A stretch of DNA of 35,180 nucleotides, taken from positions 1 to 35,180 of the forward strand of contig JAHDFB010000035.1 in the NCBI GenBank assembly GCA_020628475.1, given 5' to 3'. The position numbers were made by a program, and so were the translations under genes. Numbering within the stretch: position 1 is the stretch's first letter; the number at the start of each line of letters is the position of its first letter. The notes below the pieces were generated by a model that was not told the DNA's origin, did no database searches, and saw only the letters and a program-made list of their open reading frames with translations. The DNA comes from Saprospiraceae bacterium. Its GTDB lineage: Bacteria > Bacteroidota > Bacteroidia > Chitinophagales > Saprospiraceae. Positions 16,342-25,095 of the stretch are shown in pieces.

Positions 16342-17367
16342 TTATGCGCTGATCCCTAAGCATTCCATCAGTTGCTTTTGAGACTGCATTTTATGTTGTT
16401 GATAAAAATGAAGAATATGTTCTGTAATCTTTTCAAATTCTACTAAAAAACCATCATGGCCATATGGGGAGGTAATTTCTTTAAATACTGCATTCGGTAG
16501 TAAACCAGCGAGTTCCTTTTGTAATGAAACTGGCATTAATATATCTGATTCAAAACCAATGACCAGGGTTGGTATTTGAATGGTGGATAAGGCCTTCTCT
16601 ACTCCTCCTCGGGATCTACCTATATCATGTGAATCTAAGCAGTTTGTAAGATAATAGTAACAGATCGCATCAAATCGCTTGACAAATTTATCGCCTTGGT
16701 ATTGAATATAAGATGCTGCCTTTTTCTCCGGTTCATTGCCTGTTCTGTTTTGCTGAGTTTTTATAAATTGATCGGACGTTCTATATCCCAGCATAGCCAT
16801 AGCACGTGCAGCTTTCAGTCCGTTTTTCCCTTGATGTGGTTTTCCAAAAGTTTTATCGGCATGTAATGCCAATCTTTGCGCTTCGTGTATTGCAATTCCC
16901 CAAGGAGATTCTTTGGCGGCACAAGCCAACAACACCATATTCTCAATTTTCCCAGAAAAACTGTACGAAAACTCCAAAGCTTGAGATGCCCCCATACTTC
17001 CTCCTATTATCGTGTGAATTCGATCAATGCCTAAGGCTTCGGCCAATAGCAATTGTGCTTGCGCCAAATCTCGAATCGTAAATTCCGGAAAACTCATGTC
17101 GGTCGGACAAGTTGAACCATAGGGAGATCCAATAATATTGGCACAGATAATGAAATATTCGGATGGATCATACAATCTTTGAGTACCGAAAAGTCCACTC
17201 CACCAAGATTCCACGTCGGCATTGGCAGATAAAGCATGAAAGACCCAAACGATGTTGGTGTGTTCTTCATTCAGTGTTCCTAGGACATTGAAGCTTAAGT
17301 TGAGATTTTCTATAGTCTCACCAGACTCTAAGGTAAATGTTGGAATAGTAAAAGTATCTAATTTCAT
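16342..17367 (-). CDS. metX: Homoserine O-acetyltransferase
   Basis: This 341-residue alpha/beta hydrolase has the MetX layout: NVLGTLNEEHTNIVWVFHAL, the CANIIGSPYGSTCP oxyanion region, nucleophile Ser124 in GGSMGASQ, Asp275 in GFESDILMP and His304 in SPYGHDGFL. It transfers acetyl from acetyl-CoA to homoserine, the first committed step of methionine synthesis. Some MetX-like enzymes use succinyl-CoA, so the acyl donor is inferred. The ATG overlaps the stop of the upstream sulfhydrylase gene by one base (TAATG), and both genes follow a SAM-I riboswitch, so methionine sufficiency should shut off transcription of both. A weak hairpin (16257-16278) may end the unit. Confidence 0.92.
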   Translation of the reverse strand: MKLDTFTIPTFTLESGETIENLNLSFNVLGTLNEEHTNIVWVFHALSANADVESWWSGLFGTQRLYDPSEYFIICANIIGSPYGSTCPTDMSFPEFTIRDLAQAQLLLAEALGIDRIHTIIGGSMGASQALEFSYSFSGKIENMVLLACAAKESPWGIAIHEAQRLALHADKTFGKPHQGKNGLKAARAMAMLGYRTSDQFIKTQQNRTGNEPEKKAASYIQYQGDKFVKRFDAICYYYLTNCLDSHDIGRSRGGVEKALSTIQIPTLVIGFESDILMPVSLQKELAGLLPNAVFKEITSPYGHDGFLVEFEKITEHILHFYQQHKMQSQKQLMECLGISA

Positions 17368-18542
17368 TATTTGGACAATTTAAGGGCTTGATCAATATCA
17401 GTAAGTATATCATCGATGTGTTCTAATCCTACCGAAAATCGGAGGAATCCTGGAGTTATATCTACTAGAAGCTGTTCTTCCGGCGTCATTTTAGAATGCG
17501 TAGTTGATGCGGGATGCGTCGCTATACTCCTTGTATCTCCTAGATTGGCCGTCAATGAAAACATGTTTAACGCATTCAAAAATCGAGCTCCTCGCTCGGC
17601 TCCACCCTTAATAATACATCCTACTAAGCCTCCTCCTTGAGACATTTGTTTCTTGGCCAGATCATATTGTTCATAATTCTCATCATGCGGATAAATGACC
17701 TTTTCAATCTCCTGATGCCCATTTAAAAAACCGGCTAACTTGGATGCGTTACTACAATGTCTATCCATTCTAATGGCCAGGGTTTCAATGCTCTTCGATA
17801 ATATCCATGCATTAAAGGGTGACAAACTTGATCCAGTACGTCTAAGAAAATCGTAACATTGAGAAACCCAATGCTCCTCTCCTACTATCGCGCCGCCCAA
17901 TACTCGCCCTTGTCCATCGATATACTTCGTCGCTGAATGCAATACTAGATGGGCTCCATATTCAGCTGGGCGCTGCAGATAAGGAGTCGCGAAACAATTA
18001 TCTACAGCATAAATCAACTCGTGTGATTTGGCTAATTTCCCAATAAATTCAAGATCTGCTGTTTTCAAGGTTGGGTTCGAAGGGGTTTCTAAGAACAGCA
18101 TTTTTGTATTTTTCTGAATAGCTTGTTCCCAAGAATGATTATCACTGACTTCCACAAAGCTGTGACTAACGCCCATATTGGGCAGAATATTGGTGAGTAT
18201 GTAGCGTGAATTTCCAAAAATAGCACTGGAAGCGACCACATGATCTCCTTGTTTTAACAAGGCTGCAAAGCACAGATATACGGCCGCCATTCCAGAAGCT
18301 GTCGCCACTCCTGACTGGCATTGCTCTAGACTACATAATTTACGAATAAATTCGTCCGTATTCGGATTCGAGAAACGTGAATATAAGTTAGCGTCAATAT
18401 TTCCTTTAAAAATATCCGCTCCTTGTTCCGCCGATTCAAAGGTAAAACTTGAGGTTAAATATAAGGCGGAGGCATGTTCTCGCCTTGCCGTGCGCACCAT
18501 TTGAGTTCTTATAGCGCGTGTTTCAAATTGCTGGTCTATCAT
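17367..18542 (-). CDS. metZ: O-acyl-homoserine sulfhydrylase (Cys/Met metabolism PLP enzyme)
   Basis: The 391-residue protein is a Cys/Met-metabolism PLP enzyme. [13 protein letters not shown] binds the phosphate, VDNCFATP holds Asp181 contacting the PLP ring nitrogen, and Lys206 in [16 protein letters not shown] forms the internal aldimine. The [12 protein letters not shown] stretch is characteristic of the MetZ (O-succinylhomoserine sulfhydrylase) branch. Paired with MetX next door, the likely reaction is O-acetylhomoserine plus sulfide giving homocysteine; a cystathionine gamma-synthase role cannot be excluded. It is the first gene after the SAM-I riboswitch. Confidence 0.88.
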
Positions 18543-18612: not shown

Positions 18613-18628
18613 CTAAGATATCTTTCGA

Positions 18629-18724
18629 CTTATCTTGATCTATTGATCAGGAATTAGCACCTTCTTGAATTATCAAGGGTTGCTAAGGTTTCACAGGGCC
18701 AGTCCCTCCACCTTTCTGGATAAG
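18629..18724 (-). ncRNA. SAM-I (S-box) riboswitch
   Basis: Read on the minus strand, this 96-base element opens with CTTATC (P1), then AGGTGGAGGGACTGGCCC with the GA-rich kink-turn, TGTGAAACCTTAGCAACC, GAAGGTGCTAATTCC and a P4 hairpin (TGATC-AATA-GATCA), and closes P1 with GATAAG. These are the conserved SAM-I segments in order. SAM binding should stabilise P1 and let the downstream terminator form, reducing metZ-metX transcription. Confidence 0.95.
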
Positions 18725-18768
18725 TAATTATTTAATGTTTCGCAAGTACACTTTTATACCTGATGCAT

Positions 18769-18819: not shown

Positions 18820-20376
18820 CTATATTTTAACAAATCGCTTCGTCTTCGAATAATGCGATCCAGATATTCTAAGAATATATTGTGCATTTGGAAGATCATG
18901 GAGATCTATATTAAACACATGCTCCCCTGTTGATAATCGCTTAGAAAATATATGTTTCACTTCAGATCCTAGTATGCTATATATTTTTAGTGTATAGTGA
19001 TCTTCTTGTAAATTCAGCTTGACTTGAGCATGGCCAGAATTTGGATTCGGAAAGATGTCTAAGCTTGCAAAATCCTCTTCTGTCATATTCGTATTTACTG
19101 GAGCACTACAATTTTTCAGTATAGGTAAATACTGATAATCCTCAAATAATAGCTCTCCTACCACATCCGGCTCCATTTCAAACCAATCAATTAATACAGA
19201 GGCATATATAGATCGATAGTCATACTGCATTTCGAGTCCAGCCTGTACATCCACTGATTCGTCAAAATCAGGATTACTTCCAAGGGTTCCTCTAGCTACG
19301 CATTCTCCAAAAAGGAATAATGGTGCAGCTGTTCCGTGATCGGATCCCAAGCTTACATTGGAGCGTATTCTTCTTCCAAATTCACTATAGGTCATACCCA
19401 ACACTTGCTCTCCATAGCCCAATTGACTGATATCATCTTGAAATGCACATATTGCATCGGATAATGTTTTAAGTAAATTGGCGTGCGCTCCTGTTGTATG
19501 ATCTCCATCCACTACCTGATCCGCATGTGTATCATAACCACCTTGGTTCAAAATGTAAATTTTTGTTTTCGAACCACCCGAAATCATTCTTGCCACCGTT
19601 TTTAACTGTTGGGCCATGCGATTATCTTCTGGATATTTCGTCGATAGATTCGTTCCTTTTTCATAGGTTTCCATGACACGTTCACTGTATAAATTACTTT
19701 GTTCTATGCTATCTAGAATATACTTGTATTCATCTCCATAGCAATCACTGCCATAATCCCCTACTATAGATTCAGGTACTGTACCTGCGACTGACGGATC
19801 AACCAATGCTAGACTAAAGTTAGCTACTGTACCTTGACAGGTCTCTGATAAGCTATAATCAATCGTCATAGCCAACGGATCCGGATTATCTTCATTTGGG
19901 TAGCCATCTGGGTATTGTGGATGATTATGTTCCAGGTAACGACCAAACCAACCAGTTTTTAAATAGGTCTCACTATCACTACCCGTATTCCAAACATCCG
20001 TCGACCTAAAATGTGATCTATTTTGATTCGGATAAGCAACTCCTTGAACAATTCCTAATTTATCATCGTTATACAGCTCTTGAAAGCCCGTCATGGAACC
20101 ATGAAATGCATTATCGCCATCTATGTTTAATAATGAACTTTCAGGTAGTATAATATCGGGGCGTACATTGGCCAGTACATCGTATTTATCTAAAGGGATC
20201 AACGTATTCAATCCATCATTTCCTCCTCCCATGTAAATGAGCACCAATATCTTATCATTATCAACGGATAAGTGATTGAACAATGCCGATTTTGCCACGG
20301 CGGAAATTCCCATTCCATTCACTAATATTGGTAAGGAAAAGGCTGAACTTGATCTAAGAAAATCTCTACGTTTCAT
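18820..20376 (-). CDS. DUF1501 family protein with Tat-like signal and T9SS sorting domain
   Basis: The 518-residue protein begins MKRRDFLRSSSAFSLP, a twin-arginine-like signal. The body has DUF1501 (sulfatase-fold) motifs: LVLIYMGGGNDGLNTLIPLD near residue 43, NRSHFRSTDVWNTG, ILNQGGYDTHADQ and YSEFGRRIRSN with GSDHGTAAPLFLFG. The end (LDIFPNPNSGHAQVKL, then NAQYILRISGSHYSK) is a T9SS type A sorting domain. The gene lies 50 bases downstream of a DUF1800 gene, a pairing seen across many phyla. Function of the pair is unknown. A Tat-like signal together with a T9SS tail would imply folded export to the periplasm before surface transport. Confidence 0.88.
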   Translation of the reverse strand: MKRRDFLRSSSAFSLPILVNGMGISAVAKSALFNHLSVDNDKILVLIYMGGGNDGLNTLIPLDKYDVLANVRPDIILPESSLLNIDGDNAFHGSMTGFQELYNDDKLGIVQGVAYPNQNRSHFRSTDVWNTGSDSETYLKTGWFGRYLEHNHPQYPDGYPNEDNPDPLAMTIDYSLSETCQGTVANFSLALVDPSVAGTVPESIVGDYGSDCYGDEYKYILDSIEQSNLYSERVMETYEKGTNLSTKYPEDNRMAQQLKTVARMISGGSKTKIYILNQGGYDTHADQVVDGDHTTGAHANLLKTLSDAICAFQDDISQLGYGEQVLGMTYSEFGRRIRSNVSLGSDHGTAAPLFLFGECVARGTLGSNPDFDESVDVQAGLEMQYDYRSIYASVLIDWFEMEPDVVGELLFEDYQYLPILKNCSAPVNTNMTEEDFASLDIFPNPNSGHAQVKLNLQEDHYTLKIYSILGSEVKHIFSKRLSTGEHVFNIDLHDLPNAQYILRISGSHYSKTKRFVKI

Positions 20377-20426: not shown

Positions 20427-22010
20427 TTAACTTAATTGATATTCTGGTAAGGTGGTCATACTTAAAAATAATGACCTCAATTTATTTTCAATGGCCAGCT
20501 TCAGGTTTTCATCATCTGGATTGGCTATGTATTCCGTATATTCTACATTCCATTCAAAATCAGGAAGGCCTTCCAGAATCACTTCTTTTAAGAAATCTAT
20601 TTGACCGGCATTTAACGATTTCGGAAAAATATAATCAGCCAATTCTGGAATCAACACATTAATATCGGAAGGATCGCTGATGGAATCCAGCAAGCTGAAG
20701 GGATCTAATTTGAATAAATTATTACCACCTGTATTTACTCCAATCTGCCAAAGAATTACATTCACTTGAGAACGTAGAGGTAAGGTAACTGAATTTAGCC
20801 ATATTCTATAGAATACGGGTTCTTGATAATAGGCCTTCCATCCAGCAACATTCGGGTGATTATACACCGATTGTTGTAAAGCGGCGGCGCCTTCTAATAT
20901 TCCGAACCATAAATTATATTGGCGGTTCAAATTATCGATGTTATCGTTCGTATCCGATAATCCAAATGCATTGACGATGAAGTCAATTGGGCTTTTAATC
21001 ATGGTACCGATATAACATTCTTGATAAAAGTGTTCACTTCGGAGGAAGGTCTCCAGTACCGGTTTTATGTTGTATTCATTTTCTCTAAAAATCTTCGCAA
21101 GTGGTTCAATGACTTCTTCTTCAATAGTATCATCAATGGTGTAGTGTAAAAACCATCTATATAATTTTCTGACGATAAATCTCGAAACCTCTTCTTTCTC
21201 GAATATTATGTCAATGAGCACTTTATATTCCTCCTCCCCTTGATCACTGATTTCTATATTATCAAATCGATGTGATAATGTCTTGGTTGTGGTATCGTGT
21301 CTATTTGGTACAAAGACGCTTCCGATTTCTGGATTCTCTGGATTAAAATGACCGTAATCTCTCCAACCGGTTAGTACCTTTGCCATTGCAACTACGTCAT
21401 CTTCGGTATAATTGGTATAATCTCCATCACCTACTACAGGCCCCTTTCCAATCGTAAATAATTCCAGTAATTCACGCGCATAATTTTCATTGGGTGCTTG
21501 TTTTGAATTTTGTCGTCCATTTAGATAGCGTAACATAGAAGGATCAATGGTAACATCTTTAACCATTTGTTTAAAATCTCCTAATGCATTATCCCGCATC
21601 ATAGAATAGTTCCGATATATAAAACGTGCATCATTTACATCGGCTGTGACAAAATGATTGTGCCAAAACAAGGTTAATTTTTCTTGAATTGAAATATCAT
21701 CTTCCAACCATTTCTTAACGATCCATCCACCTAATGATCTATTTCGATAATTATTTAACCCAGGTACACCATTGGTAAAACCTGCATTGACCCATGTCTC
21801 TCCAACCGCAACTTCTGGATCATTTTCGAAGTATGGATTGAGTGGGAAATCGTTTGGATCTTTATAACTAAGTATTTTTTCCACTGTTTGATCCAATCCA
21901 TCTGAAACAGATTGTAGAATTTGCTTTTTACGTGCGGAAAAACTTGTACGTCTTAAGAGATGAGCGGCTACGTTAGCATTCCATGCTCCAGTGTAGGGAT
22001 TTATACTCAT
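20427..22010 (-). CDS. DUF1800 family protein
   Basis: The 527-residue protein shows DUF1800 landmarks in order: AAHLLRRTSFSARKKQI near the start, LTLFWHNHFVTADVND, NENYARELLELFTIG, AMAKVLTGWRDYG, SRFIVRKLYRWFLHY, IKSPIDFIVNAFGL and HPNVAGWKAYY. No clear signal peptide is visible, as often for this family. It is first in a two-gene unit with the DUF1501 gene, strongly suggesting joint action in an uncharacterised envelope or extracellular process. No canonical -7 box was found upstream. Confidence 0.88.
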   Translation of the reverse strand: MSINPYTGAWNANVAAHLLRRTSFSARKKQILQSVSDGLDQTVEKILSYKDPNDFPLNPYFENDPEVAVGETWVNAGFTNGVPGLNNYRNRSLGGWIVKKWLEDDISIQEKLTLFWHNHFVTADVNDARFIYRNYSMMRDNALGDFKQMVKDVTIDPSMLRYLNGRQNSKQAPNENYARELLELFTIGKGPVVGDGDYTNYTEDDVVAMAKVLTGWRDYGHFNPENPEIGSVFVPNRHDTTTKTLSHRFDNIEISDQGEEEYKVLIDIIFEKEEVSRFIVRKLYRWFLHYTIDDTIEEEVIEPLAKIFRENEYNIKPVLETFLRSEHFYQECYIGTMIKSPIDFIVNAFGLSDTNDNIDNLNRQYNLWFGILEGAAALQQSVYNHPNVAGWKAYYQEPVFYRIWLNSVTLPLRSQVNVILWQIGVNTGGNNLFKLDPFSLLDSISDPSDINVLIPELADYIFPKSLNAGQIDFLKEVILEGLPDFEWNVEYTEYIANPDDENLKLAIENKLRSLFLSMTTLPEYQLS

Positions 22011-22192: not shown

Positions 22193-23155
22193 ATGATTGC
22201 TTATCAACTTACTGAATTAAAAGCATCTCTTGTTCGAAATGAAGTAGCATTGAATCTAGAAGAAGGAGATCTTATTTGTAAGAATCTATATGCAGGTCTT
22301 AACCGCCGAGATCACTGGATTACACAAGGTCTCTATCCAGGTATTGAATTGCCCTGTATTTTAGGTAGTGATGGTTTGGTCGAATACGAAGGTGTTAAAT
22401 ATGTCATGAATCCAAATGAAAATTGGGGAGATCGTCTTGACATCCCAAGTTCTAAATATACGATTCGCGGTCTTCAAAAACAGGGAACATTCGCTAGTGA
22501 ATCGGCGGTTCAGTCCAAGAAGTTGTTTAAAAAACCCAGCCATTTAAGTGATGCTGAAGCTGCCATTCTTCCGCTTGGTGGTTTAACGGCTTATCGGGCT
22601 CTCGTTTCCAATTGTAAAGTACAAGCTGGAGATCGAGTCCTGATCAACGGTATAGGAGGAGGCGTAGCTCTCTTAGCTTTCCAATTTGCTATCGCTCTGG
22701 GAGCAGAAGTATATGTCAGTTCTTCTAGTCCTTCTAAAATGGAAAAGGCCATCGCCCTTGGTGCGAAGGATGCTATTAATTATCGAGACGAACAATGGGG
22801 AAAATCCTTTAAAAAGAAGGTTGGTGGATTTGACGTAATTATCGATAGTGCTGGAGGAGAGGGTTTCATTGATCTTATTCACGCTTCCAATATGGGAGCC
22901 AGGATTGGAATTTTTGGTGGTACACGTGGGTACATTAATAAATTATCCCCTCAACATTTATTTTTCAAGCAGATACACATCTTTGGAAGTACTATGGGGA
23001 ATGATCAAGAATTTGCAGATATGATCGATTTGGTCGATAAATACGAGATTAAACCTATCGTGGATACAGTCTATTCATTTGATGAAGTAAATGAAGCCAT
23101 GCAACGCATGTTGAGTCCTGAAAAATTTGGTAAAGTTGCTATTAAGATTTCTTAG
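22193..23155 (+). CDS. Zinc-independent MDR family (quinone reductase-like) oxidoreductase
   Basis: The 320-residue protein has an N-terminal GroES-like domain (AGLNRRDHWITQGLYPG, LPCILGSDGLVEYEG) and a Rossmann domain with the NAD(P)-binding stretch VLINGIGGGVALLAFQFAIA, then SPSKMEKAIALGAKDAINYR and VIIDSAGGEG. Structural and catalytic zinc ligands of classical alcohol dehydrogenases are absent, so it belongs with quinone reductase/zeta-crystallin-like enzymes that reduce C=C or quinone substrates with NADPH. Substrate is unknown. Its 3' end overlaps the convergent merC-like gene by 14 bases. Confidence 0.85.
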   Translation: MIAYQLTELKASLVRNEVALNLEEGDLICKNLYAGLNRRDHWITQGLYPGIELPCILGSDGLVEYEGVKYVMNPNENWGDRLDIPSSKYTIRGLQKQGTFASESAVQSKKLFKKPSHLSDAEAAILPLGGLTAYRALVSNCKVQAGDRVLINGIGGGVALLAFQFAIALGAEVYVSSSSPSKMEKAIALGAKDAINYRDEQWGKSFKKKVGGFDVIIDSAGGEGFIDLIHASNMGARIGIFGGTRGYINKLSPQHLFFKQIHIFGSTMGNDQEFADMIDLVDKYEIKPIVDTVYSFDEVNEAMQRMLSPEKFGKVAIKIS

Positions 23156-23510
23156 CTCGAAGTTGTTTCCAATTTACTAAATGAGCGGTTGCTATCAACA
23201 AACCTCCTATTGCAGAAAGTATGTGAAAATGAAAAAGAATGCTGATGAATAAAGCTGTAAATCCTACTAAGAACAGAGCTATTGGAATCGCATTGATCAT
23301 ATTTTTGCTATAATTAACAAATAAGGACCAACCGGCAATAATCAGCGTTACTACTAGAAATCCGACCTCTACGAAGGTGTGATCAATTATCTGAATAACA
23401 CCGAGGCCTCCAAAACTGATAATCAACGGAATTGATATGCAGTGGATGGCGCAGGCTAAAGCTACAAAGCTTCCCGTTAACTCTAATCTAGCATGTAGTT
23501 TTTGAAACAT
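23142..23510 (-). CDS. MerC domain membrane protein
   Basis: From the ATG at 23510 the protein has 122 residues with four predicted transmembrane helices. Helix 1 holds CAIHC (Cys20 and Cys24), the metal-binding pair of MerC mercury transporters, followed by SIPLIISFGG. In Bacteroidota, MerC-like proteins without a mer operon are common and may handle zinc or other metals; no mer genes are seen here. An upstream in-frame start at 23537 would lie over the promoter, so I prefer 23510. The 3' end overlaps the convergent reductase gene. Confidence 0.8.
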   Translation of the reverse strand: MFQKLHARLELTGSFVALACAIHCISIPLIISFGGLGVIQIIDHTFVEVGFLVVTLIIAGWSLFVNYSKNMINAIPIALFLVGFTALFISILFHFHILSAIGGLLIATAHLVNWKQLRAKKS

Positions 23511-23512
23511 GA

Positions 23513-23547
23513 TTGCAAATATATGCATATGCAACATGGTTTCACAA
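23513..23547 (-). promoter_or_regulatory. merC-like promoter with an overlapping imperfect palindrome
   Basis: On the minus strand TTG (23547-23545), a 21-base spacer and TATATTTG (23523-23516) form a good Bacteroidota promoter, placing transcription start at or next to the ATG at 23510. A 22-base imperfect palindrome (23513-23534, arms TTGCA and TGCAA, with an inner perfect TGCATATGCA at 23524-23533 region) covers the -7 box and could bind a metal-responsive repressor. Confidence 0.45.
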
Positions 23548-23789
23548 GTATTTGTTGTGATTTTACATTTTCACTTACAAAAAATTTTACTTTTTGTTGC
23601 TAAACATTTCATAGTCAAGCATTAATAATCGTACGATATTTAAAATTAATAGGATGTTAAACCCGAAATATGCATTAGAAAATCTATTACGAGGTCAAAC
23701 TACTTCAAAATAAGACGTTTCACTTATTTTATTGTACTTTAAGCTCTCATTACAATATTCCAACACATAATTCGGGTAAAATAAATTTT
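23538..23789. other. AT-rich spacer
   Basis: No ORF with support or RNA gene is seen. The end of the stretch has TAAATTTTG (23782-23790), which resembles a -7 box with one extra base and would start transcription into the structured element that follows. Confidence 0.5.
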
Positions 23790-24018
23790 GCACGCGATAG
23801 CGATAGTAATGGCCAGCTTGCTGGTCCCATGAAGGTATTTAAAATATTTAGAGCGCATGGAACATATGCGAGGTATCGAATTGTGCCTTTCAATAAAGTC
23901 ATTTCATGGGATGAAACCATGGATAGCGCGGACCGAAGGTATCGCCCTGATAGACTTACTCCATAAAATATCGTCTAAAAATAATGAAGGCATGATCGAG
24001 AAACTCCATCATGCCTTC
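23790..24018 (+). ncRNA. Candidate structured non-coding RNA or repeat element
   Basis: A GC-richer island in AT-rich DNA folds into nested helices: GCGATA (23794-23799) with TATCGC (23940-23945); CGATA (23801-23805) with TATCG (23874-23878); hairpins GGCCAGC-TT-GCTGGTC (23811-23826, one wobble), CGCAT/ATGCG (23854-23870) and TTTCAT-GGG-ATGAAA (23902-23916). It ends with a perfect 11-pair hairpin. I recall similar strings (CGATAGCGATAG and GGACCGAAGGTATCGCCC) in other Bacteroidota genomes but cannot check that here. The 73-codon ORF inside it has no convincing protein features. Strand is inferred from the terminator position. Confidence 0.5.
23986..24018. terminator. Perfect 11-pair hairpin, probable intrinsic terminator
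   Basis: GAAGGCATGAT (23986-23996) pairs with 24008-24018 across an 11-base loop. The right flank is pyrimidine-rich (gctcttcttct), the left flank A-rich, so it could end the plus-strand element just upstream or, less likely, the minus-strand channel gene 255 bases away. Confidence 0.7.
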
Positions 24019-24273
24019 GCTCTTCTTCTACTGTTTTTGAATATTGGTAGATTTTTGAGCTTAGCTGTTATTAGCTAAAACTAGTCTATTCTTTTTTAGA
24101 ATATAATAGCAGCAAAGTCGTACAGCGAAAAAAAAATTGACTGACCCACTAAGAAACAAGAATAGCTAGGTTTTTTCGCTTAACCAAATATAATATAATT
24201 TGCAAATTCTACAAAATGCTTAGTGATAATTTTTAAAATAATTTACAAAACAAAATAAATGTGCTAACATCTT

Positions 24274-25095
24274 CTATTTTCCAATATTTCCTATTTCAAC
24301 ACCTTCTGAGTAGGCCACTTGAACATTATTCTCATGGAATGCCCTTTTAATTTCGGCATAAATCTCAAATTTAGCATCCCAATAATCCTCGGGAAGCACA
24401 TAAGGTCGGACGGCTATAATGATATTGTGCGAGTCGTATGATAAGATCCCGAGTTCTATTTCTGGTTCTTTCATTACTCGATCATGTTTTTCCAGCACCT
24501 CTTGAATAATCGCTTTTACCTTGGTCCAATCTTCACTATAAGGCATGGTTACTTCCAGTTCGAGTCGTATATTTCCTTTTTGGCTGATATTCGATATTAT
24601 TCCTTCGATCACCATAGCATTCGGAACAATCAAGGTTTTATTACCTGGCGTTTCTAATATGGTATTGAAGATTTGAATTTGCATGACTTGACCAAATTTC
24701 TCTTGCATTTCGACATAATCCCCTACTTTATATGGCTTGAAAATCAGGATTAATATTCCTGCTGCGAAGTTGGACAAGGAACCTTGTAAGGCAAGTCCGA
24801 CCGCAAAACTCGCTGCTGCCAATACAGCAATCAGAGATGCCGTATCTACTCCAACAATACCTGCCACGGACAAGAATAAAAATGCTTTTAAAAGGATATC
24901 GACCAATGTCGCTATAAAGCCTGAAATTTCAGGTGCCAAGCCTGTTTTGGCTATATTTTTAGAGACAATTTTGTTAATGAATTTCAATATTCTAAGTCCG
25001 ATGATCAGTATGATAATGGCACCCAATATTTTCGGTCCATAGTTAATAATACCGTCCATTATTTTATCGACGTACTTATTTATATTTTCGTTCAT
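24274..25095 (-). CDS. MscS family mechanosensitive ion channel
   Basis: The 273-residue protein has an N-terminal amphipathic part, three transmembrane helices and a soluble beta domain. The pore-lining TM3 is ASLIAVLAAASFAVGLALQG followed by SLSNFAAGILILIFKP, the Gly/Ala-packed MscS signature, then YKVGDYVEM and PNAMVIEGIISNIS. It should open under membrane tension to release solutes during hypo-osmotic shock. Length is close to E. coli MscS. It starts six bases after the serine hydrolase stop, so the two are probably co-transcribed. Confidence 0.9.
   Translation of the reverse strand: MNENINKYVDKIMDGIINYGPKILGAIIILIIGLRILKFINKIVSKNIAKTGLAPEISGFIATLVDILLKAFLFLSVAGIVGVDTASLIAVLAAASFAVGLALQGSLSNFAAGILILIFKPYKVGDYVEMQEKFGQVMQIQIFNTILETPGNKTLIVPNAMVIEGIISNISQKGNIRLELEVTMPYSEDWTKVKAIIQEVLEKHDRVMKEPEIELGILSYDSHNIIIAVRPYVLPEDYWDAKFEIYAEIKRAFHENNVQVAYSEGVEIGNIGK

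Follow-up and report, generated by a model that had tools for sequence, protein, structure and literature searches.

The window analysed here is a stretch of 35,180 nucleotides from a Saprospiraceae bacterium. Its intergenic spacer at 23538-24273 is bordered by the start of a MerC-like gene (23142-23537) and by the 3' end of an MscS-type channel gene (24274-25095), both on the minus strand, and it carries one copy of a dispersed repeat followed by a separate hairpin. A sequence-only reading had described this spacer as gene-free and as harbouring a conserved structured element with relatives in other Bacteroidota, a view that holds. The features of the locus are the following.

23794..23947, plus strand: whole repeat copy, 154 bases; its ends are common to other copies, its flanks are not
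23794..23798, plus strand: 5' strand of P1, GCGAT; covaries with 23941-23945
23800..23802, plus strand: 5' strand of P4, GCG; covaries with 23927-23929
23803..23806, plus strand: first motif strand, ATAG; A.G, U-A, A-U and G.A opposite 23923-23926
23809..23812, plus strand: 5' strand of P2, ATGG; covaries with 23917-23920, the inner two pairs being lost in many genomes
23813..23824, plus strand: P2a hairpin CCAGC-TT-GCTGG within the variable lobe; read directly, own-genome counterparts by eye
23825..23911, plus strand: P2b, TCCCATGAA (23825-23833) with TTCATGGGA (23903-23911); read directly
23917..23920, plus strand: 3' strand of P2, CCAT; covariation
23923..23926, plus strand: second motif strand, ATAG; A-U/U-A/G-C/C-G and A.G to G.A exchanges
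23927..23929, plus strand: 3' strand of P4, CGC; covariation
23932..23940, plus strand: P3 hairpin ACC-GAA-GGT; length varies among copies
23941..23945, plus strand: 3' strand of P1, ATCGC, then CC at 23946-23947; covariation
23986..24018, minus strand: separate 11-pair hairpin outside the repeat, probable terminator of the gene at 24274-25095 (minus strand)

The closing stem proposed for the element stands for five pairs (23794-23798 with 23941-23945); its sixth pair, A23799-T23940, is lost in relatives, in which the base equivalent to T23940 pairs within P3 instead. The hairpin with a two-base loop is present as drawn (CCAGC at 23813-23817, TT, GCTGG at 23820-23824). The terminal hairpin indeed has 11 perfect pairs (23986-23996 with 24008-24018), but it begins 38 bases beyond the repeat and was rejected as a part of the element. 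It has a T-rich tail on the minus strand (ATTATTTTTA) and none on the plus strand (GCTCTTCTTC), and is probably a minus-strand terminator. A consensus terminator scan of both strands, which permits loops of 3-8, returned none; the loop of this hairpin is 11. The order repeat, A-tract and terminator is similar in three other genomes.

A crossing pairing of GCAC with GTGC, put forward as a pseudoknot or switch, was rejected because its 5' arm, GCAC at 23790-23793, falls outside the repeat and is missing from the other own-genome copies. The promoter consensus applied here is TAnnTTTG, and the candidate -7-like promoter at 23782-23790 was dropped since TAAATTTTG is one base too long to fit it; there is no exact TAnnTTTG in 23700-23800. 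Nor did the idea of a single transcript of about 220 bases, running from a promoter near 23790 to the hairpin, find support: the repeat stops at 23947, its copies carry no promoter motif, and the hairpin is separate. The structure is real but is not one RNA that spans the whole stretch of 230 bases, and we favour a REP-like element.

At the Rfam cut-offs, a SAM riboswitch (18627-18726, minus strand, 87.9 bits) is the sole match in the whole window; it precedes the gene of a Cys/Met-metabolism PLP enzyme (17367-18542, minus strand). Sub-threshold matches of 23700-24080 to snoZ267, rli24, RsaJ and HOTAIR_2 at E up to 10 are at chance level and were discarded. The window also holds adjacent DUF1800 and DUF1501 genes (20427-22010 and 18820-20376, minus strand), of which the latter carries a type IX secretion tail domain. 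At another locus (L022, 303-376, plus strand), a sub-threshold CyaR match (34 of 47 bits) is probably an ordinary terminator hairpin.

Core fold of the repeat family

A DNA search with 23770-24030 matched 2 of 100 genomes, our own included: three further places in the own genome and a single one in a different genus, each of them matching the 3' end of the query. These first copies start with GCGATA or GTGGTA and have a common 3' part and an unrelated middle. When six copies, trimmed to their ends, were aligned by hand, 97.2% of the cells were paired versus 85.4% in shuffled alignments, and 7 of 12 pairs had changed on both sides. The family fold consists, from 5' to 3', of P1 (5 bp), one A, P4 (3 bp), the motif A.G / U-A / A-U / G.A, P2 (4 bp) around a variable lobe, two bases, P3 of variable length, the 3' strand of P1 and CC.

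An alignment of 31 copies (14 from the own genome, 17 from others), built to the fold and hence biased toward it, has 95.4% of its 527 cells paired and 14 of 17 pairs double-changed; its covariation score is 0.603, versus 0.176 for shuffles and 0.045 to 0.127 for slid partners. L012, L016, L019, L020, L025, L027, L032, L036 and L037 (unparsed, misparsed or with P3 under 9 bases) were dropped from it, as was L026, which looks like a simple repeat. A larger parse covers 149 of 155 distinct copies, with the 3' anchor picked by letters and not by pairing. In its core, 1757 of 1788 cells are Watson-Crick, 15 G-T, 3 A-C and 13 other, and 200 shuffles reached at most 1446 Watson-Crick cells; the 155 copies came from models or exact patterns, so that well-fitting ends are enriched among them. 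The covariation test that the sequence-only reading had called for was clearly passed. Other parses comprised 61 of 68 copies for counts of flanking bases and 72 for the comparison of orthologs, with 10 pattern matches left out.

The variable pair within the motif is A-T in 89 copies, T-A in 29, G-C in 24, C-G in 5 and unpaired in 2, and in 3 copies (GTAG/ATGA) the flanking A.G changes to G.A jointly with U-A to U.G. RNA helices usually hold more G-T (G-U) pairs than the 15 of 1788 in the core of this repeat; over minimum-energy RNA folds, G-U makes up 5.4% of plus-strand pairs, which is not unusually low. Among the 155 copies, the plus strand folds better in 123 and the minus strand in 30.

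The claim that the element has more structure than expected by chance holds strongly by comparison of copies, but not by folding energy: 23790-23960 alone (171 bases) gives z = -0.81, with 45 of 200 shuffles equally stable, and the longer stretch 23790-24030 reaches z = -3.21 with the separate 11-pair hairpin counted in. In the window copy the family fold has -26.2 versus -43.7 kcal/mol for the minimum-energy fold, a gap of 17.5 kcal/mol, because a second GCGATA (23800-23805) allows a register-shifted closing stem. As calculated, this gap may either speak against a stable family-fold RNA here or mean that non-standard pairs escape the energy model. P2b of the window copy encloses a 69-base insert and is longer than in the other own-genome copies. 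Owing to this long lobe, the window copy scores poorly with covariance models of six copies (R1, 34.5 bits in the wrong 5' register) and of 31 copies (R2, 19.3 bits).

Relation to Flavo-1 and distribution

The sequence-only reading had known of no named family for the element. One exists, in that the repeat is homologous to Rfam Flavo-1 (RF01705), a conclusion drawn from R2 and the Rfam model matching the same loci. When 20 R2 loci were run against Rfam, 16 proved to have a Flavo-1 match with E up to 0.1 that coincides in place and strand, seven of them above its cut-off (52.7-67.6 bits) and nine more at 28.3-36.6 bits; among 12 nearer loci with copies, four have sub-threshold matches of 24.5-30.3 bits. 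The window copy itself matches Flavo-1 neither at the gathering cut-off (42 bits) nor at E up to 10, and we therefore do not file it as a member and regard it as a divergent relative. Both share the core of P4, the AUnG/AnAG motif, the outer P2 and a variable lobe. However, full copies of the repeat add P1 and P3, which lie outside the 76 positions of the Rfam model, and the window copy carries 69 extra bases in P2b.

Flavo-1 has been a candidate structured RNA since 2010, without a function. The Rfam type is sRNA, and the relevant table of PMC2864571 gives Flavo-1 as RNA y, cis-regulatory n, Bacteroidetes. The accessible portion of PMC9029176 names it without a function, and a transcriptome study, in the part available, was unable to place it: matches were indistinctly sense or antisense to transcribed regions, and many were untranscribed (PMC9723704). 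In the open-licence literature we found no paper that deals with P1 and P3, treats Flavo-1 as a dispersed repeat or describes lobe exchange.

In the own draft genome, which is 61% complete, model R1 has 15 matches distributed over 14 places; two of the rows belong to a single copy on C45. At E 0.01 it matched 18 of 199 genomes of the bacterial family, the matches near that threshold being doubtful (L026 resembles a simple repeat). Across the phylum, model R2 at E 0.001 matches at least 48 of 395 genomes and at least 23 of 171 genera, lower bounds because 14 candidates were scored per genome. An exact 26-base pattern of the Flavobacterium-type 3' end was found in at least 120 stretches of species genomes, and the 80 matches listed are from Flavobacterium, Mucilaginibacter, Faecalibacter, Aquimarina, Mesonia and the like, genera that we take to be all Bacteroidota. 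An exact pattern of the own-genome-type 3' end had no match in a scan of genome contigs, and a near-exact one matched 3 of 298 genomes of the bacterial family; such matches are few because the letters vary while the pairing stays.

One Flavobacterium-type copy had no BLAST match in plasmid and phage collections. In IMG/VR, two patterns matched seven contigs (L294-L300); R2 matches all seven and does so at the place of the pattern in six, L295 having three R2 matches, none at that place. Some of these contigs, filed as viral, may be host DNA.

Placement and behaviour between genes

No recurring gene family adjoins the repeat at more than two of 68 loci, and the neighbour pairs that do occur are five orthologous sites and four other single protein matches. 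A cis-regulator of the riboswitch type was rejected, as no recurring gene family follows the repeat in a constant orientation. Counting open reading frames of at least 90 aa without gene-model support, at 88 loci (L013, L020 and L037 left out), 3' ends account for 97 of 166 flanking gene ends; 44 spacers are tandem (25 co-oriented, 19 anti), 23 convergent and 11 divergent, and the rest have one side uncalled. The upstream gene, where one was called (82 loci), is co-oriented with the repeat at 50 and points away at 32. Read-through RNA from the co-oriented genes is possible.

TAnnTTTG is not enriched upstream of the repeat (5 of 154 windows versus 9 of 154 for the 55 bases farther out); downstream it occurs in 8 and 15 of 153 windows. 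At the first three positions past the repeat, 37, 44 and 47 of 61 copies have an A, and the base preceding the repeat varies but is never G. When the origin is placed at dnaA, with rounded lengths for some genomes, 86 of the 143 copies among the matches listed in 15 genomes are on the leading and 57 on the lagging replication strand, a weak bias (p = 0.019).

Presence at a given site is patchy. We compared 24 orthologous loci of one genus, namely those of 30 that match the gene beside L060 at E 2.1e-33 or better: five have a model match in the spacer, and the other 19 have none at E 0.1. In the occupied spacers two copies lie 17 bases from the gene, and three lie at 115-196 bases in the opposite orientation. 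These last three copies end exactly at a terminator A-tract that is also present in five aligned empty loci; these empty loci also lack some tens of bases before the repeat, so that the exact inserted unit is blurred. Empty Flavobacterium-type spacers (L084-L105) are often bordered at both gene ends by short repeated and inverted words (aaggttctaag, cttagaacctt), which are another low-complexity repeat.

Where orthologous copies persist, the repeat can be more conserved than its flanks: 98.8% versus 88-91% identity for L060/L063, 97.7% versus 90-92% for L068/L075, and 89 of 92 bases versus 76.4% and 87.9% for L162/L238, a pair whose last 26 bases are alike by the choice of locus. Repeat identity is much lower in other orthologous pairs, down to 59-71%, because their lobes differ. 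Paired changes distinguish the lobe stems within the five-genome group of L162 (TGAG/CTCA, GGAG/CTCC, AGGG/CCCT). L170 and L211 share both flanks right up to the repeat and have unrelated lobes, so that the whole P2 lobe has been exchanged in place; L056/L064 are apparently a second such pair, with poorer near flanks. This exchange fits gene conversion among copies as well as a renewed insertion into the same site. Within a single genome, G792, 20 of 33 copies were compared and share no flanks at E 0.001; by reading, their stem letters differ and the stems still pair. Conservation above the flanks, together with paired changes in place, suggests a host function or conversion, and not a selfish element alone.

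DNA or RNA as the working form

To the reading that 23794-23947 is a copy of a dispersed repeat with a Flavo-1-like core, working as folded single-stranded DNA that a putative factor would recognise, copy and exchange, we assign a probability of about 0.42. The working form would be not RNA but a single DNA strand that replication or extrusion exposes. A protein would read P1, P4 and the AUAG/AUAG motif, with the variable P2 and P3 lobes as tolerated cargo, and this factor would copy the repeat into new spacers and exchange parts between copies. We lean this way because promoters are missing, either orientation occurs, presence is patchy and core G-T pairs are few. Dispersal in many copies, the lack of a recurrent neighbour family, the unshared flanks in G792, the better folding of the plus strand, the exact end at the A-tract and the lobe exchange of L170 and L211 count in the same direction, as does the strand indifference of Flavo-1 matches, many of them untranscribed, in the available text of PMC9723704. 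On the other side stand the failure to find a mobilizer or, with exact patterns, a long autonomous version, the weak replication-strand bias, the lack of a plasmid or phage match, the possible read-through and the 5.4% of G-U pairs. Conservation in place and the missing enzyme keep both an RNA function and a host-maintained DNA site in play.

That the repeat works as RNA, made by read-through or from unrecognised promoters and binding a protein or shaping mRNA ends, with Flavo-1 a true RNA family, seems to us rather unlikely. The strong covariation with strand preference, the non-standard A.G and G.A pairs and GNNA-like P3 loops, as in RNA, the conservation in place above that of the flanks and the prevalence of 3' ends among flanking gene ends all argue for it, and Flavo-1 is listed as RNA by Rfam and in the tabulated part of PMC2864571. 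However, the promoter motif is not enriched, the upstream gene points away at 32 of 82 loci, the minimum-energy fold of the window copy differs from the family fold, and the reported Flavo-1 matches (PMC9723704, as far as available) are indifferent to the transcribed strand. Less probable still is a DNA site maintained by the host, at which a chromosome protein or topoisomerase would bind a cruciform or hairpin, much as in some BIME functions, with gene conversion between copies. Intergenic placing indifferent to orientation, conservation and paired changes in place, and the near-perfectly Watson-Crick core agree with such a site, whereas occupancy of 5 of 24 orthologous spacers, and no match in 347 of 395 genomes with 14 candidates scored in each, argue against an essential one.

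Mobilization as a REP element by a linked Y1 HUH transposase (RAYT) would account for a dispersed, intergenic, hairpin-forming repeat, and Y1_Tnp (PF01797) is present in 23 of 26 genomes tested. We nevertheless consider it very improbable and reject a linked RAYT. The domain was not found in the own draft genome (G000) and is also absent from G363 (2 matches) and from G792, a complete genome of one contig with 33 matches, the most copies among 20 genomes. Moreover, copies do not flank Y1_Tnp genes: the repeat model had no match in 30 Y1_Tnp loci (98,752 bases), 30 of about 100 places listed. In the accessible sections of PMC6006769, RAYT-mobilized REP elements are defined with a GTAG/GTGG tetranucleotide at the hairpin foot, which by eye is not seen before P1 in the copies inspected; the same sections describe Bacteroidetes RAYT subclass 2.6 as flanked by atypical repeated structures, a point in favour of a RAYT. 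An exact pattern of the 5' half occurred 55 times in 8 genomes; 43 occurrences lie inside model matches listed, and the 12 others, which were read, are all short elements or variants.

Like REP, REPIN and BIME elements (REP and RAYT background in the available part of PMC12306157), the repeat is short, dispersed and intergenic, folds as a single strand and varies in number between related genomes. In contrast to them, it has a branched core with conserved non-standard pairs, and shows neither the GTAG/GTGG foot nor a link to a Y1 transposase. Palindromic repeats without a dedicated transposase, short hairpins with a CGTC tag, have been reported also from Bacteroidetes (PMC3733652, in the part available); no such tag is present in the core here. 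It is conceivable, and we propose it tentatively, that Flavo-1 does not constitute an RNA family. It would instead be the short version of a mobile repeat that occurs throughout Bacteroidota and folds as a single strand, with a branched recognition core of P1, P4, AUAG/AUAG and P3, an exchangeable lobe and a mobilizer other than a Y1 HUH transposase. The extended structure, placing without promoters and in either orientation, patchy presence and lobe exchange turn the Flavo-1 annotation into a testable question of what reads the fold, as DNA or as RNA. If it is read as DNA, numerous sRNA annotations in this phylum would be mistaken, and the enzyme of a bacterial mobile repeat would be waiting to be found.

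Paired ends around a variable middle are also a property of BOX and ERIC, modular intergenic repeats of other phyla and other sequences. The attC sites of integrons likewise combine conserved paired ends with a variable middle and are used as folded single-stranded DNA; their conserved letters differ from those of the repeat, around which no cassette arrays were seen. Among the lobe variants, five G792 copies (L146, L153, L156, L158 and L160) form a compact 61-base subclass whose lobe is a single hairpin of the GGTGC/GCACC or GGCTAC/GTAGC type. L187, from Mucilaginibacter sp. PPCGB 2223, apparently has an inverted repeat of the GCCTGCCTG type inserted in both P2 strands, and it also offers a near-lobeless form of the repeat, GCGTTAGGGATAGCCCGGCCGCAGGCAACGCCC.
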